From: Verrucomicrobiales bacterium
GTDB lineage: Bacteria > Verrucomicrobiota > Verrucomicrobiia > Limisphaerales > UBA9464
NCBI GenBank assembly: GCA_027489875.1
Contig: JAIXZE010000367.1
Location: 1-64,000 of the forward strand
DNA length: 64,000 nucleotides
Direction: 5' to 3'
Position numbers and translations under genes: made by a program. Below the pieces are notes generated by a model, which saw only the letters and a program-made list of their open reading frames with translations, was not told where the DNA came from and made no database searches. This document shows positions 3,507 through 43,810 of this stretch, one piece after another. How positions within the stretch are numbered: the stretch's first letter is position 1; every line of letters begins with the position of its first letter.

Positions 3507-3572
3507 GTCCGGTCAGCATGGCGGGAAGGGTGGGGTGGTTTGAAGATTGAAGTTGGGGGCGTTTCTGAAGGG

Positions 3573-3665
3573 GGCGCCTGCACGTTGCCCCCTCATGGAA
3601 CGGGGTGGCGACGTCCTCGTCGCCATGGAAAAGGCTTCCTGACGGCGACGAGGACGAGCGGTCTG
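3573..3665. repeat. Truncated copy (E) of the palindromic MITE-like element
   Basis: A degenerate left terminal repeat (3573-3592, ending GTTGCCCCC) is followed by the core palindrome GGCGACGTCCTCGTCGCC and then by the facing core GGCGACGAGGACG. The right terminal repeat is missing. It is related to the complete copies at 16.3, 18.8, 30.5 and 43.6 kb. Its outer edge lies 66 bp before the leuS start codon. The rest of 3507-3762 holds no supported gene. Confidence 0.6.
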
Positions 3666-4696: not shown

Positions 4697-4860
4697 GGTC
4701 TGGAAGCTGGGAACGAGACTGGCAACTCCGCCTGGAAGCGCCGCGTGGGGGCACGCGGCCTACAGTTGGGAGTTCCCAGAGACCAGTTGCCAGATACCAG
4801 GGAACTGGCGACTGGGAACTGGTATCTCACCCCGCGCCGCGTGGGGGCACGGGGTCAATC
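4697..4860. repeat. Composite interspersed repeat, copy 1
   Basis: The order of modules is a GCCGCGTGGGGGCACGCGGC hairpin, GGGAGTTCCCAGAG, CCAGTTGCCAG, then repeats of the ACTGGGAACTGG type and TATCTCACCCC. The same order recurs at 5275-5395 and 5396-5495. A second, incomplete hairpin lies near 4837-4855. The whole 4570-5578 region contains no gene that I can support. Confidence 0.7.
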
Positions 4861-4904
4861 GTTGGGATCTTCGGACTCGAAGGGCAGTACGCCGGAGGCG
4901 TTGG

Positions 4905-5105
4905 AGCGGATAGCCCCGGGTTGGCGCGGGAGCGCCTACCCGGGGTTTCGTGTTGGAATCGTCACGCACCCCGAAGGTGGTGCGAGGATTGGGAGAGGCT
5001 GCAACCCCTCCAGGGTTGGTGTCTCCTTGGGAACGGGTGACCCGGGGTTGCTTCGCACCCCGTATTGGCTAATGGCTGCAACGCCTCCGGCGTTGGAACC
5101 ACGTG
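4905..5105. repeat. Palindrome-rich interspersed repeat (CCCGGGG / GCAACGCCTCCGGCGTTGG type)
   Basis: The block holds paired short inverted repeats: CCCCGGGTTGG with CTACCCGGGG, a CGCACCCCGAAGGTGGTGCG hairpin, and AACGCCTCCGGCGTT. Similar text recurs at 28250-28345. Repeats of this look are frequent in verrucomicrobial and planctomycete genomes. No coding function is evident. Confidence 0.55.
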
Positions 5106-5151
5106 GGATGGGGAGGTTGGCCAGTGTTTTTGTTGAGGGGAAGGTGGCTCA

Positions 5152-5219
5152 CTCAAAGACGCAAAGACGCAAAAGGGGGAAGCCGGATGTGTTCTGTCTT
5201 GGCGTCTTTGCGTCTTGAG
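5152..5219. repeat. Inverted repeat with CTCAAAGACGCAAAGACGC arms
   Basis: The left arm at 5152-5170 and the right arm at 5202-5219 are near-perfect inverted copies with a loop of about 31 nt. This type of palindromic repeat is widespread in several bacterial phyla. It has no sign of coding. Confidence 0.7.
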
Positions 5220-5274
5220 CGAAGCGGGCGTGAGGAATCCATCCGTCGGCGCCTGTGGGGGTGGGGATGGGAAA

Positions 5275-5495
5275 CGGCGGACTGGGAACTGGTATCTCAC
5301 CCCGCGCCGCGTGGGGGCACGCGGCCTACAGATGGGAGTTCCCAGAGGCCAGTTGCCAGGAACTGGGGACTGGGGACTGGCAACTGGGATCTCACCCTGC
5401 GCCGCGTGGGGGCACGCGGCCTTCAGACGGAGTTCCCAGAGGCCAGTTGCCAGACGGTCTGGGAACTGGCGACTGGGGACTGGGAACTCTGAAAA
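5275..5495. repeat. Composite interspersed repeat, copies 2 and 3 in tandem
   Basis: Two consecutive copies of the composite repeat are present. Each has a GCCGCGTGGGGGCACGCGGC hairpin (5307-5326 and 5401-5420), then CAGAGGCCAGTTGCCAG, then a variable run of GGGAACTGG/GGACTGG units. The number of 7-9 bp units differs between copies. The transketolase start follows about 85 bp downstream. Confidence 0.7.
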
Positions 5496-10742: not shown

Positions 10743-11013
10743 GGTTTTGGGGAGAGGGCGACGAGGACGTCGCTGCCCCGTCCGTGAGCGGGGAGGCGAT
10801 GTCTTCATCGCCGTGAGGTGAGCTTTGGGAGAGGGCGACGGGGACGTCGCCGCCCCGTCCACGAGCGGGGAGGCGATGTCCTCATCGCCGTGGGGGGAGC
10901 TTTGGGAGAGGGCGACGGGGACGTCGCTGCCCCGTCCAAGAGCGGGGAGGCGATGTCTTCATCGCCGTGAGGGGAGCTTTGGGAGAGGGCGACGAGGACG
11001 TCGCTGCCCCGTT
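10743..11013. repeat. Tandem array of a 77-bp palindrome-bearing unit
   Basis: Three full units and a partial fourth recur with an exact 77-bp period; GAGGGCG is at 10754, 10831, 10908 and 10985. Each unit holds GGCGACGAGGACGTCGC and, inverted, GGCGATGTCTTCATCGCC joined by a GGGG/CCCC stem. These cores also form the centre of the MITE-like element elsewhere. The array separates the convergent hrpB and ABC permease genes and could serve as a bidirectional stop for transcription. Confidence 0.85.
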
Positions 11014-12870: not shown

Positions 12871-13425
12871 TCAGGGCGCGCCGGGAGTGGGTTCGGCTTC
12901 AAGGGTGAAGAAGGTCTTCACGGCACCATCGGCGTAGAGGTGGTTCTTGCCGCGGTTGGCCCCGCGGGCGGCGTGGAAGTTCTCCTTGTCGCTGAACAGC
13001 GCGACGCCGTCGGACTTGAGCGAGAGACCCATGAGCTTCGGGTGGTCGGCGGACTGGCCGTTGAGGAGGAAGTTCCAGAAGTAGCTGGAGCCGGTCCGTT
13101 CGAAGACGCGCTGGCGGTCGGACGGACAACGGAGGACTTCGCGGTTGCCAAGGTGCGGCAGGAGCACGTCCTCGACGGCGTTGGTGACGACCTGGTTGGT
13201 GTCGGTGGAACGGTTGGCCATGATGGGAAACCGGTTCTGGTGGTCGTCGAGGTAGAGGCGGAGGGCGACGCCGACCTGGCGCAGGTTGGAGAGGCAGGCG
13301 GTGGCACGCGCGGATTCAGTGGCCTTGCCGAGCGTGGGCAGGAGCAGTCCGGCGAGGATCGCGATGATGGCGATGACCACGAGCAGTTCGATGAGCGTGA
13401 AGGCGTGGGACGTGCGATCGACCAC
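12871..13425 (-). CDS. Type II secretion/type IV pilin-like pseudopilin
   Basis: After a short leader (VVDRTSHA) comes the prepilin cleavage and helix motif [18 protein letters not shown], with Glu at mature position 5. It continues [29 protein letters not shown], the form common in Verrucomicrobia, Planctomycetes and Lentisphaerae. The C-terminal part ends with a short [12 protein letters not shown] block like the H-X-DG domain. I chose GTG 13425 (184 residues), which gives a normal leader. The frame stays open upstream to an ATG at 13593, which would add 56 residues made of a 14-residue repeat ([11 protein letters not shown]...) read from a 42-bp tandem DNA repeat. That looks like non-coding repeat read through by chance. 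The prepilin peptidase encoded at 28.4-29.5 kb would process it. Confidence 0.8.
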
Positions 13426-13442
13426 AGATGAGGAGAGTATGC

Positions 13443-13700
13443 GGTCCACGGATTTCACCGATGGCACAGATGTGGGGAGTGAACGGTCCACAGATTTCAC
13501 CGATGACACCGATGTGGGGAGTGAGCGGTCCACAGATTTCACGGATGGCACAGATGTGGGGAGTGAGCGGTCCACAGATTTCACCGATGACACAGATTAC
13601 TGCGTGTGGACCGGTGGCGGGCGCGATGGATGAATCCGGCGGGTGGTTTGCTTCGGACCATCTGTGAAATCTGTGAAATCTGTGGATGGCATTCTGCTGT
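13443..13700. repeat. 42-bp tandem repeat and related CCACAGATTTCAC repeats
   Basis: Units starting GGTCCACAGATTTCACCGAT recur with an exact 42-bp period at 13443, 13485, 13527 and 13569. An inverted ATCTGTGAAATCTGTGAAAT-type stretch follows at about 13660-13690. The same motif appears at 50818-50960. Since 42 is a multiple of three, the array reads as a repetitive peptide in the pseudopilin frame. No other gene is seen between 13426 and 13713. Confidence 0.8.
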
Positions 13701-16280: not shown

Positions 16281-16318
16281 GACGGCTACTGCATGGTTAC
16301 GGCTGCGCCGTCTCTGTG

Positions 16319-16451
16319 GGCGCATCTTGACACTGCCCCCTTTTGGAGGGGATTCGGGGCGGCGATGTCCTCATCGCCTTGGGAATGGCTTTGGAAAGGC
16401 GACGAGGACGTCGCCACCCCGTTCCTCACGGGGGCAGTGTCAAGATGCGCC
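16319..16451. mobile_element. MITE-like palindromic element, copy A (133 bp)
   Basis: Perfect 22-bp terminal inverted repeats (beginning GGCGCATCTTGACACTG) lie at 16319-16340 and 16430-16451. Inside are inverted 24-bp core arms at 16355-16378 and 16398-16421, which differ at three positions. The 11-bp sequence CCGTCTCTGTG occurs directly at both outer edges (16308-16318 and 16452-16462), as expected for a target-site duplication. The element encodes nothing. The SDR start codon follows 63 bp beyond its right end. Confidence 0.85.
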
Positions 16452-16514
16452 CCGTCTCTGTGTGGGTTGCTCAAAAGGCGGGACGCCTATCAGGGAACGG
16501 GGCATGGTCCGGTC

Positions 16515-17339
16515 ATGGATTCGGCGTTGGTCGGGAAGGTGGTGGTGGTCACGGGTGCGTCCGGTGGCATCGGGATGGCGACGGCGCGGCGGTTCGCAGC
16601 CGAGGGCGCGCGCGTGGTGGTGCATTACCGGACGGGGCGGGACCGGGCGGAAGGCTTGGTGAAGGCGTTGGGTGCAGACGCGTTGGCGGTCCGCGCGGAA
16701 CTCACACGGGAGGGCGAGGTGCGCCGGATGTTTGCGGCGGTGATGCGGCGGTACGGTCAGATCGACACCCTGATCGTCAACGCGGGGTCCTGGGCGAGCG
16801 AATCGCTGCCGGTGGACGAGATCCCGCTGCGGCGATGGCGCCAGACGGTGGACGCGGTGTTGACGTCGGCGTTCCTGAGTGTGCGCGAGTTCAGCCGGGT
16901 GATGCGTCGCCAGCGGCGCGGGAATGCGGTTTTGGTGGCTTCGACGGCGGGTGTGTTTGGCGAGGCTGGCCACCTCGATTACGCGTCGGCAAAGGCGGCG
17001 ATGGCCTACGGAATGGTGCGGACGTTGAAGAACGAATTTGTGCGGCTCGCGCCGCACACGGCGGAGTATTGCGGCGGACGCATCAACGCGATCTGCCCGG
17101 GGTGGACGGTGGTGCCGAGGAACGCGGCGAAGCTGAAAGATGCGGCCACGGTGCGGAAGGTGACGGCCACGATGGCGCTGCCACAGATCGGACGTCCGGA
17201 GGACATGGCGAACGCGGCGGTATTCCTGTCATCGGATGTGCTGGCGCGGCACATCACGGGTCAGACCCTGGTGGTGGCCGGAGGTATGGAAGGTCGATTG
17301 TTGTGGCAACCCGAGGAGATCGACCCGACGACGGCGTGA
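16515..17339 (+). CDS. Short-chain dehydrogenase/reductase
   Basis: This 274-residue oxidoreductase has a Rossmann NAD(P) site, VVTGASGGIG (residues 11-20), an NAG block at 89-91, and the catalytic triad Ser143 (VASTAG), Tyr156 and Lys160 (YASAK). A proline-glycine substrate-loop motif (NAICPGWT) and the C-terminal QTLVVAGGM are present as in FabG-like enzymes. Substrate and direction are not known. The start is ATG 16515, directly before the Rossmann motif. It is convergent with lepB, 13 bp away. Confidence 0.88.
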   Translation: MDSALVGKVVVVTGASGGIGMATARRFAAEGARVVVHYRTGRDRAEGLVKALGADALAVRAELTREGEVRRMFAAVMRRYGQIDTLIVNAGSWASESLPVDEIPLRRWRQTVDAVLTSAFLSVREFSRVMRRQRRGNAVLVASTAGVFGEAGHLDYASAKAAMAYGMVRTLKNEFVRLAPHTAEYCGGRINAICPGWTVVPRNAAKLKDAATVRKVTATMALPQIGRPEDMANAAVFLSSDVLARHITGQTLVVAGGMEGRLLWQPEEIDPTTA

Positions 17340-18575: not shown

Positions 18576-18770
18576 ACAGTTCCCAGTTTCCAGAACTGGA
18601 GACTTTCCTCGCCGCCGGGTGAGGGCACCCGGCCTTCAAAGGAAGTTCCTAGTTGCGAGATTCCAGATGCCAGATGGATGCGCCGATCTCCACCGGGTGA
18701 GGGCACCCGGCCTTCAGGGGAGGTTCCACTTATGGAATGCTTGATCCCGGAATTGGGAACCCCGGGCTCG
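18576..18770. repeat. Interspersed repeat block, GCCGGGTGAGGGCACCCGGC hairpin variant
   Basis: Two hairpins of the GGGTGAGGGCACCC type at about 18612-18634 and 18694-18714 are each flanked by TTCCCAGTTTCC or TTCCAGATGCCAG units. This is a variant of the composite repeat at 4.7-5.5 kb. The gap 18489-19031 contains this block and mobile element copy B, and no gene. Confidence 0.65.
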
Positions 18771-18834
18771 AACACAGCCTCCTGACGTCGACTGCTACGT
18801 TTGGGGGTAGCCAACTACGTGAGGAGGCCGCAGG

Positions 18835-18968
18835 GGCGCATCTTGAAACTGCCCCTGCACGGAACGGGGTGGCGACGTCCTCGTCGCCGTTCCAAAGCCT
18901 TTCGCAGGGCGATGAGGACATCGCCACCCCGTTCCCATTCTCAAAAGGGGGCAGTGTCAAGATGCGCC
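18835..18968. mobile_element. MITE-like palindromic element, copy B
   Basis: The left terminal repeat (18835-18855, one difference and one shorter) and right terminal repeat (18947-18968) match those of copy A. The inner cores are GGCGACGTCCTCGTCGCC and GGCGATGAGGACATCGCC with CCCCGTTCC. The direct repeat GGCCGCAGG flanks it at 18826-18834 and 18970-18978. The phosphoesterase start codon lies 63 bp beyond its right end. Confidence 0.85.
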
Positions 18969-19031
18969 CGGCCGCAGGGGGGTGGGAACACGGGGCTGGT
19001 CAGGGCAGGTGGTTCCGTCGGAGGGTGAGGC

Positions 19032-20003
19032 ATGGGTGCGTTGCTGGTGCTGAGTGATGTTCATCGGGCGGGACCGATCGAGCAGACCCGGCGTGGATTT
19101 GATTCGCAGGCCGTTGGGAATCCTTTCCTGCGCGGGTTCCAGCGGGTGTACCGGCGCTACGTCTGGATGCATGATCCCATGGCGCACAACCACCTTCTGG
19201 AAGCCATCGTGCGCCGGGTGCCGGATCCGGAGTGGGTGGTGGCGAACGGGGATTTCACCCTCGATACCGGGTTCGTTGGTGTGAGCGAGGAGGGGGCTTA
19301 TCAGAGTGCATCGGAGGCGCTCGCGATCCTGCGTCGGGCCTATGGGAAGCGGTTGCGATGCACCCTTGGGGATCATGACATCGGGAAGAAGAGCTTCATC
19401 GGGGACGCGGGCGGGGTGCGTCGGCGGAGCCTGGAACGGTGTGAGTCGGATCTGGGGATCCCGCGGTTATGGCACGAGGATTTTCCGGGATGGCGATGGA
19501 TCGGGGTGACCTCGACGTTGGCGGCGTGGCCTGTTTTCCGGGTGGAGACACCGCAGGACGAGCAGGCGTGGTGGGCGGCGGCGCACGCGGCGCATCTGGC
19601 GGCGATTGACCGGTTGTTCGCGGAGGCGAACGCGTTGGGGTTGCGGACGGTGTTGTTCTGCCATGACCCGACGGCGTTGCCGTTCCTGCGGGAGTTGCCA
19701 GGGGTGGCAGCGGCGATGCCCGGGATCGGGACGACAGTCATCGGGCATCTGCACACGCGGTTGGTGCTGCGGGTGGGGCGATTGCTGGCCGGGGTGCCGC
19801 AGGTGGGATGGGCAGGGCACAGCATCCGGCGGTATACGGCGGCGCTGAACAAGGCCCGCTGCTGGCGGGAATTCCGGGTGCACCTGTGTCCGTCGCCGAC
19901 CGGCGTCCAATTGCTGAAGGACGGCGGCTACCTGAAAACGGAATGGCCGCCGACCGGACGTGAAGTCCGATGGGCGGCCCATGATCTGCCGTGGACCGGG
20001 TGA
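19032..20003 (+). CDS. Calcineurin-like metallophosphoesterase
   Basis: The 323-residue product has the blocks of the metallophosphoesterase superfamily: SDVH (residues 8-11), ANGDF, a variant GDHD in place of GNHE, FCHDP and GHLHTR. These bind two metal ions and attack phosphate esters. The substrate is unknown. There is no signal peptide, so it is likely cytoplasmic. It is convergent with dsbD. Confidence 0.85.
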   Translation: MGALLVLSDVHRAGPIEQTRRGFDSQAVGNPFLRGFQRVYRRYVWMHDPMAHNHLLEAIVRRVPDPEWVVANGDFTLDTGFVGVSEEGAYQSASEALAILRRAYGKRLRCTLGDHDIGKKSFIGDAGGVRRRSLERCESDLGIPRLWHEDFPGWRWIGVTSTLAAWPVFRVETPQDEQAWWAAAHAAHLAAIDRLFAEANALGLRTVLFCHDPTALPFLRELPGVAAAMPGIGTTVIGHLHTRLVLRVGRLLAGVPQVGWAGHSIRRYTAALNKARCWREFRVHLCPSPTGVQLLKDGGYLKTEWPPTGREVRWAAHDLPWTG

Positions 20004-28129: not shown

Positions 28130-28345
28130 GGGATGCCAGTGCCCAGATGGGGTTTTTGAAGGGAGTTTCCAGAGGCCAGTTGCCAGCTCCCAGAGGGGCA
28201 GCAGTTGAAGGCCGGGTGCCCTCACCCGGCGGGGTGCGAAGATTCGGGAGGCTGCAACCCCTGCCGGGGTAGGTTATTCCTTTTGTACCGGTGACCCGGG
28301 GTCGCTTTGCACCCCGGGCTACCCGCTTCAACGCCTCCGGCGTAT
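28130..28345. repeat. Interspersed repeat block between glcF and pilD
   Basis: GCCAGTGCCCAG, AGAGGCCAGTTGCCAG and a GCCGGGTGCCCTCACCCGGC hairpin (about 28213-28232) are followed by CGGGG/CACCCCG palindromes. These copy the block at 4905-5105 in shortened form (GGCTGCAACCCCTGCCGGGG, AACGCCTCCGGCGT). The gap 28096-28415 holds no gene. Confidence 0.65.
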
Positions 28346-30448: not shown

Positions 30449-30522
30449 GCGGGCGGGAAGGTAGAACGCGACGGGCGACGGGCGAAGTCTGAACAAGGGG
30501 AGATTTTTCCCTCCCAACTCCA

Positions 30523-30607
30523 GCCGCATCTTGACACTGCTCCCTTTTGGAACGGCGACGAAGACGTCGCCACCCCGTTGCATGCGGGAGCAGTGTGAAG
30601 ATGCGCC
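30523..30607. mobile_element. MITE-like palindromic element, copy C (short, about 85 bp)
   Basis: Terminal inverted repeats at 30523-30544 and 30586-30607 differ at three positions. Only one inner core (GGCGACGAAGACGTCGCC with ACCCCGTTG) is kept. The 10-bp TCCCAACTCC occurs directly on both sides (30512-30521 and 30608-30617). It ends 65 bp before the PEP-CTERM gene start. Confidence 0.82.
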
Positions 30608-30672
30608 TCCCAACTCCCGGGTAAGGAACCTCCGCTTGAAACGGCGGCGGGATGTCGCATGCTCGCCGCCCC

Positions 30673-42458: not shown

Positions 42459-43538
<1,080 letters not shown>

Positions 43539-43612
43539 TCAGATACAGGCGCGGGAGCCTACCGGTGGAGGGGCTGGGGTCAACGGATTGTTTCGGTTGG
43601 CTGGACCTGAGG

Positions 43613-43745
43613 GGCACCTCTCGACACCGCCCCCGCTGGGAACCGGGTGGCGACGTCCTCATCGCCGTTCCAAGGCCTTTCCCATGGCGATGAGGACATC
43701 GCGGCCTCGGAACCGTTCCCAAAGGGGGCAGCATCAAGATGCGCC
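43613..43745. mobile_element. MITE-like palindromic element, copy D (degenerate)
   Basis: The right terminal repeat (43724-43745) is well kept. The left (43613-43634) has about five changes. The inner cores GGCGACGTCCTCATCGCC and GGCGATGAGGACATCGC face each other. No clear direct repeat flanks this copy, in keeping with greater age. It ends 65 bp before the start codon of the trypsin-like gene. Confidence 0.75.
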
Positions 43746-43810
43746 TCCACCCGCATGTGTGTGGAGCGAAGGGTTGCCGAGGGGGAACGGGTTGGGTAAA
43801 AAGTGTTCCC

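Follow-up and report, generated by a model that had tools for sequence, protein, structure and literature searches.

The window, i.e. the whole stretch of 64,000 nucleotides that was analyzed, holds a 135-bp element, copy A, at 16318-16452, with an amidohydrolase gene on one side and a short-chain dehydrogenase gene (16515-17339, plus strand; PF13561, PF00106) on the other, the latter starting 62 bp downstream of the element (elements, core hairpins and hairpin arrays are given without strand throughout). Copy A is nearly symmetric. Its 22-bp terminal inverted repeats are perfect, as the earlier note had stated, with GGGCGCATCTTGACACTGCCCC at 16318-16339 on the plus strand and its exact complement at 16431-16452 on the minus strand; the left repeat is identical to the ends of ISKra4-like insertion sequences (ISs) in loci L062, L087, L121 and L160. 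Between the ends lie two core hairpins, GGCGATG-TCCT-CATCGCC (16361-16378) and GGCGACG-AGGA-CGTCGCC (16398-16415), which also pair with one another, and a single strand of the element folds from end to end (z = -9.0), in agreement with the full-length hairpin previously proposed. Immediately outside the ends the target duplication CGTCTCTGT is found on the plus strand at 16309-16317 and again at 16453-16461. It is 9 bp long and not 11 bp as had been read, because one G/C of each inverted repeat had been counted in. A perfect TTGACA, pointing inward, is located within GGGCGCATCTTGACACTGCCCC in the inverted repeat of all copies, and could be the -35 of a transposase promoter in autonomous ISs.

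In total, the window carries seven 22-bp ends with at most three mismatches, compared to 0.00 in shuffled sequence. Copy B (18834-18969) is 136 bp long and flanked by an 8-9-bp duplication, GGCCGCAG(G), while copy C (30522-30608), with a 9-bp duplication, CCCAACTCC, is only 87 bp and has lost one inner hairpin. The direct repeats of 9-10 bp that had been described for these two copies measure 9 bp for copy C and 8-9 bp for copy B. A fourth copy, D (43612-43746), has decayed ends and no duplication, and a truncated, decayed copy at 3571-3656 consists of the left end and hairpins only. Other palindromic repeat families are present in the window at 4738-5464, 18609-18727 and 28205-28241 (e.g. GCCGCGTGGGGGCACGCGGCC), and at locus L011 a MITE sits inside a repeat of another palindromic family. 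The window also contains 42-bp tandem repeats at 13423-13590 (CACAGATG...GGTCCACAGATTTCACCGATG), with related dispersed copies of ATCTGTGAAATCTGTG at 13658 and 50818.

The family and its palindromic core

By searching the host assembly (G000, a draft of 6.2 Mb in 451 contigs, 89% complete) for the end sequence, a check that the earlier note had proposed, we found 483 ends with a 21-mer and 464 with a 22-mer, both allowing at most three mismatches, and none with a reversed pattern as control, so that other copies clearly exist. The 464 ends correspond to about 232 element equivalents, i.e. the family has at least 230 copies in this genome. Statistics on duplications, divergence and flanks were obtained from 66 distinct copies in the fetched loci. 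Left and right flanks agreed only in the 9-bp register, with a mean identity of 0.78 versus 0.28-0.37 in the other registers tested, and the duplication length was therefore set to 9 bp; a duplication of 8 bp fits three copies. Exact 9-bp duplications were seen in 26 of the 66 copies and duplications with at most one mismatch in 42, against 0.01 when flanks were randomly re-paired. For the insertion in L034, a paralogous empty site with a single target copy was identified in L220, where 146 bp align at 82% identity, and a weaker one was found for L011; the empty sites for which close relatives had been suggested were accordingly found as paralogs, in loci of the copy-bearing genome. The copies differ from their consensus by 7% on average and by 1.5% at minimum, and many duplications are mutated. 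The recent mobility once claimed is thus supported only in part. Tandem MITE pairs sharing one 9-bp target repeat occur in L037 (1387-1665), L049 (1386-1535) and L244 (1-260), and may have arisen either by unequal recombination or by transposition of an element next to itself. The repeat is short, carries no transposase, and has 22-bp inverted ends, a duplication of constant length and a high, dispersed copy number. The original description as a MITE-like family is hence upheld by the inverted ends, the 9-bp duplications that flank dozens of independent copies, the empty-site paralog and the presence of an autonomous parent type in relatives.

The inner hairpins form a GATG/GACG heterodimer in 59 of the 66 copies and a clean homodimer in none, which points to one founder. 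Core hairpins (at most one mismatch) amount to 1355 in G000, three times as many as the 464 ends, because the core is also present alone and in tandem arrays. One such array of the hairpin pair, without MITE ends and with a 77-bp period, lies in the window at 10747-11012, and arrays with a period of 77-79 bp, likewise without MITE ends, were observed in L307-L309. No recognizable ends were found at the solitary cores and 77-79-bp arrays of G000, and a search of Rfam gave no match. Selection on the hairpin through compensatory change was considered and rejected. Single stem changes outnumber double ones at all stem pairs but two, namely pair 6-13, which carries the founder polymorphism, and, by a narrow margin, pair 5-14, at which the majority of double changes fail to pair, so that nothing indicates selection on the hairpin.

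When GTDB genomes were scanned with the end sequence, at least 77 stretches were returned; among the matches listed, nearly all were labelled Verrucomicrobia and some Proteobacteria or only "bacterium". The 122 distinct cores clustered into 23 groups, including one for the shortened copy C, so that about 22 unrelated cores remain, spread over roughly two dozen genomes of Verrucomicrobiota. Most of the cores tested for self-complementarity (28 of 33) had z of -2.5 or lower, and five were near zero. Out of 60 MITEs of other genomes, 18 had exact 9-bp duplications and 26 had at most one mismatch. Three genomes of the same genus as the window (G315, G316 and G320) contain 62-110 ends but at most two copies of the G000 core hairpin, and two others (G317 and G201) hold copies of the G000 core, mostly decayed. 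Several MAG records labelled "Akkermansia muciniphila" (L065, L067, L080, L086 and similar ones) contain these MITEs as well; in the case of CAMCFL, which appears to correspond to G320 of the window's genus, the label is probably wrong. With about 22 unrelated cores between the same ends elsewhere, and no compensatory changes apart from the founder polymorphism, the palindromic core is a passenger sequence.

The origin of this passenger can be read in another way, namely that ISKra4 ends captured a pre-existing REP doublet of the host and that REPs hitchhike on a DDE transposase. The surplus of core hairpins over ends in G000, the solitary cores and arrays without recognizable ends, and the finding that the same ends hold other palindromes in other genomes are all consistent with such a capture. 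On the other hand, sampling of other MITE families revealed no end-less core near their elements, and 45 cores were counted in G320, i.e. two per element, as expected if they are confined to MITEs. The core-only copies could furthermore be decayed or recombined MITEs, similar to what is reported for truncated QMITE2 (PMC10969869). We regard the capture as possible, if on balance improbable; the related idea that the core is a REP of the host in all of the genomes was not supported outside G000. The core-only copies of G000 would thus represent either a REP family that predates its capture by the ends or MITE remnants that multiplied later.

The probable parent transposase

In relatives, some of the ends run directly into the N-terminus (...LREIE.EV.AEGREW...) or the C-terminus (...HWDELW) of a transposase, and such ISKra4-like termini adjoin the ends in L062, L074, L087, L121, L127, L134 and L193. 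Two autonomous elements could be delimited. The one in L160 is 1380 bp long and has ends with 1 and 0 mismatches, and its reading frame is broken near the start. The one in L161 (1360 bp) encodes an intact transposase of 416 aa and is flanked by an 8-bp duplication, AATCAACC; its ends are related and not identical, i.e. GGGTGCATCTTGACACTGTCC and a variant, with 3 and 5 mismatches. Against the ISKra4 model NF033572, the two proteins score 169-170 bits (E-values of about 1e-49), below the NCBIfam equivalog cut-off of 205, and D173, D259 and E372 are invariant in an alignment of six ISKra4-like proteins. The short N- and C-terminal peptides gave no match to NCBIfam, nor did a peptide search against plasmids. 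Elements combining these ends with a transposase, namely those in L160 and L161, the one in L193 and several copies at contig ends, all belong to genomes other than G000, and the full-length transposon with the same ends that had been suggested as a possible parent is thus found, in related genomes, in the form of ISKra4-like elements. Among 286 genomes of the class, an ISKra4 match was obtained in 16 of the 24 with ends versus 32 of the 262 without (Fisher p = 1e-8, counting genomes as independent and ignoring shared ancestry). ISKra4 elements are characterized by inverted repeats of 18-39 bp, duplications of 8-9 bp and promoter targeting on both sides (PMC3942029), and the repeat and duplication lengths expected of elements mobilized by them are both present in the MITEs.

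Other candidate parents were rejected. The single match to an IS4/IS5-like DDE_Tnp_1 transposase in G000 had no such inverted repeat around it, and none of the three Y1_Tnp (RAYT) genes of G000 is bounded by these ends. As a separate observation, the start of one RAYT-like Y1 gene (L140, 376-775; G000:C254) abuts a truncated MITE that is reduced to the right end and the two core hairpins.

We found no ISKra4-like transposase in the window's own draft genome, an absence that is not certain because the draft is only 89% complete, and none in several genomes of the same genus that are rich in ends. An ISKra4-like transposase, present in this cell now or formerly, would presumably have acted on the MITEs in trans. 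The missing enzyme, together with the mean divergence of the copies and the tandem copies with one common 9-bp repeat, could also be taken to mean that the family is a dead relic, now spread by recombination and tandem duplication alone. Multi-copy ISs are, however, often absent from short-read drafts, some copies are still within 1.5% of the consensus, and the 26 perfect duplications have not yet been eroded, so that we consider a dead family rather unlikely.

Insertion at a fixed distance from a -35-like hexamer

The sole position-specific signal in the flanks is a TTGACA-like hexamer that starts at base 28 counted outward from the element end. At this position, 40 of 132 flanks had at least four out of six matches, compared to 2.6% in the background (p = 7e-31), and the hexamer was near background at the positions next to it. 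The gap between end and -35 is consequently 27 nt, 9 of which are the target duplication. The position-28 hexamer occurs on at least one side in 37 of the 66 copies; in the other 29, no -35-like hexamer (at least four out of six) was found on either side. In other genomes, MITEs whose cores are unrelated display the same signal in 22 of 119 flanks (p = 8e-13), and at the ends of autonomous ISs it is weak (4 of 34, versus 1.3 expected). A TA follows 16-18 nt after the hexamer in 14 of 40 marked flanks and in 7 of 71 flanks without the mark (p = 0.002), i.e. the -10 signal is weak.

Of the copies in the window, B, C and D conform to the position-28 rule to within one base, and the match of copy A is weak (3/6). 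Copy B is followed by TGGTCA at 18997-19002 (plus strand), facing a gene at 19032, and copy C by TTGAAA at 30636-30641 (plus strand), both at position 28. To the right of copy D, the -35 of a promoter-like TTGCCG-N17-TAAAAA (43774-43802, plus strand) lies at position 28 from the element end, and on the left side of this copy a TTGACC, one base off, at 43578-43583 on the minus strand faces a GAPDH gene (42459-43508).

Several elements of the ISKra4 group with nearly perfect inverted ends are reported to target positions upstream of sigma-A promoters and to do so on both sides (Guerillot et al., PMC3942029), and in the related TnGBS group the distance to the -35 is 15-17 nt (PMC3942029). The MITEs differ from this published distance, their gap of 27 nt being about one helical turn longer. 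Could the hexamer be a DNA target motif of the transposase rather than part of a promoter? The weak -10 signal would be compatible with this, as would the fact that promoters of this lineage are uncharacterized, but the hexamer matches TTGACA, faces outward and is followed by TA at promoter spacing, and ISs of the ISKra4 group are known to target promoters (PMC3942029), all of which makes a mere target motif improbable.

Proposed mechanism, known systems and significance

Taken together, the repeat is a genuine, ISKra4-type, promoter-targeting MITE superfamily. Very probably, the MITEs are non-autonomous elements whose ends are bound by an ISKra4-type transposase and which insert, with a 9-bp stagger, 27 bp upstream of a promoter -35. 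According to this scheme, the Mutator-like DDE transposase would bind the 22-bp ends and excise or copy the MITE, the staggered cut at insertion would give rise to the 9-bp duplication, and the insertion would be steered to its site 27 bp upstream of the -35 box, on either side since both ends are identical. The promoter would be recognized via RNA polymerase or through the promoter DNA.

Transposition by HUH/Y1 enzymes is not known to make a target duplication. Movement of the whole element as a REPIN by a REP-associated tyrosine (RAYT/Y1) transposase, which the core might suggest by resembling a REP doublet and occurring without ends and in tandem arrays, as might the three Y1_Tnp genes of G000, one with the truncated MITE at its start and the other two with none beside them, is contradicted by the 9-bp duplications and long inverted ends, by an autonomous DDE parent whose ends are identical and by the lack of any Y1 gene bounded by these ends, and is therefore extremely improbable. 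The comparison with REPINs in the earlier note remains apt for the look of the core, with its two inverted hairpins and, in this genome, core-only copies. REPINs and BIMEs (PMC3116915, PMC3733652) share with the MITEs the inner inverted hairpin pair, heterodimers and tandem core arrays, and differ in being without the terminal inverted repeats and target duplications of DDE elements; no GTAG or CGTC tag was seen beside the MITE core stems.

Among the closest known systems is the ISKra4 group (p-MULT 4, Mutator superfamily; PMC3942029), which has almost perfectly complementary 22-bp ends starting with GGG, duplications of 8-9 bp, insertion on both sides at a constant spacing upstream of promoters, and a DDE transposase homologous to that of the parent elements. 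In contrast to this group, the MITE is a transposase-less derivative of 135 bp in at least 230 copies, and the parent transposases score below the cut-off for curated ISKra4. TIMEs, i.e. Tn3-derived miniature elements (PMC4133298), resemble the MITEs in combining common ends with divergent cores and in being mobilized in trans, as is presumed for the MITEs, and differ in transposase family, in their 5-bp duplications, in having one or two copies per genome and in the smaller number of core classes. MITEs of the Correia, ERIC, Chunjie and QMITE types are alike in length (100-300 bp), high copy number, foldback structure and REP-like partial copies, whereas their ends and duplications are different and the available part of the source mentions no fixed promoter distance (PMC10969869). 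A literature search for the end sequence found no report, and judging by titles and abstracts, none of the publications that mention ISKra4 together with MITEs seems to deal with MITEs derived from ISKra4. MITEs, ISKra4 elements and promoter targeting by the latter are each known already, as are common ends around variable cores in TIMEs (PMC4133298); new here are the combination of these traits, the 27-nt distance and the wide range of cores.

In a wider perspective, one ISKra4-type transposase lineage may have seeded much of Verrucomicrobiota, its ends capping unrelated palindromes. Docking of the transposase on RNA polymerase already bound to a promoter would bring the elements to their landing point 27 bp upstream of the -35 box, and hundreds of genes in each genome would have gained an upstream insulator or regulatory hairpin. 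We put this scenario forward tentatively and consider it doubtful in its full extent. Promoter targeting by elements of the ISKra4 group was previously known for about a dozen autonomous ISs. The MITE family and its counterparts with unrelated cores provide an exact targeting rule that can be read from sequence alone, and which can be used to map promoters in uncultured bacteria, to predict insertion sites and to test docking of the transposase on RNA polymerase. Landing sites can, moreover, assign MITEs with unrelated cores to one enzyme, even if that enzyme is missing from the assembly.
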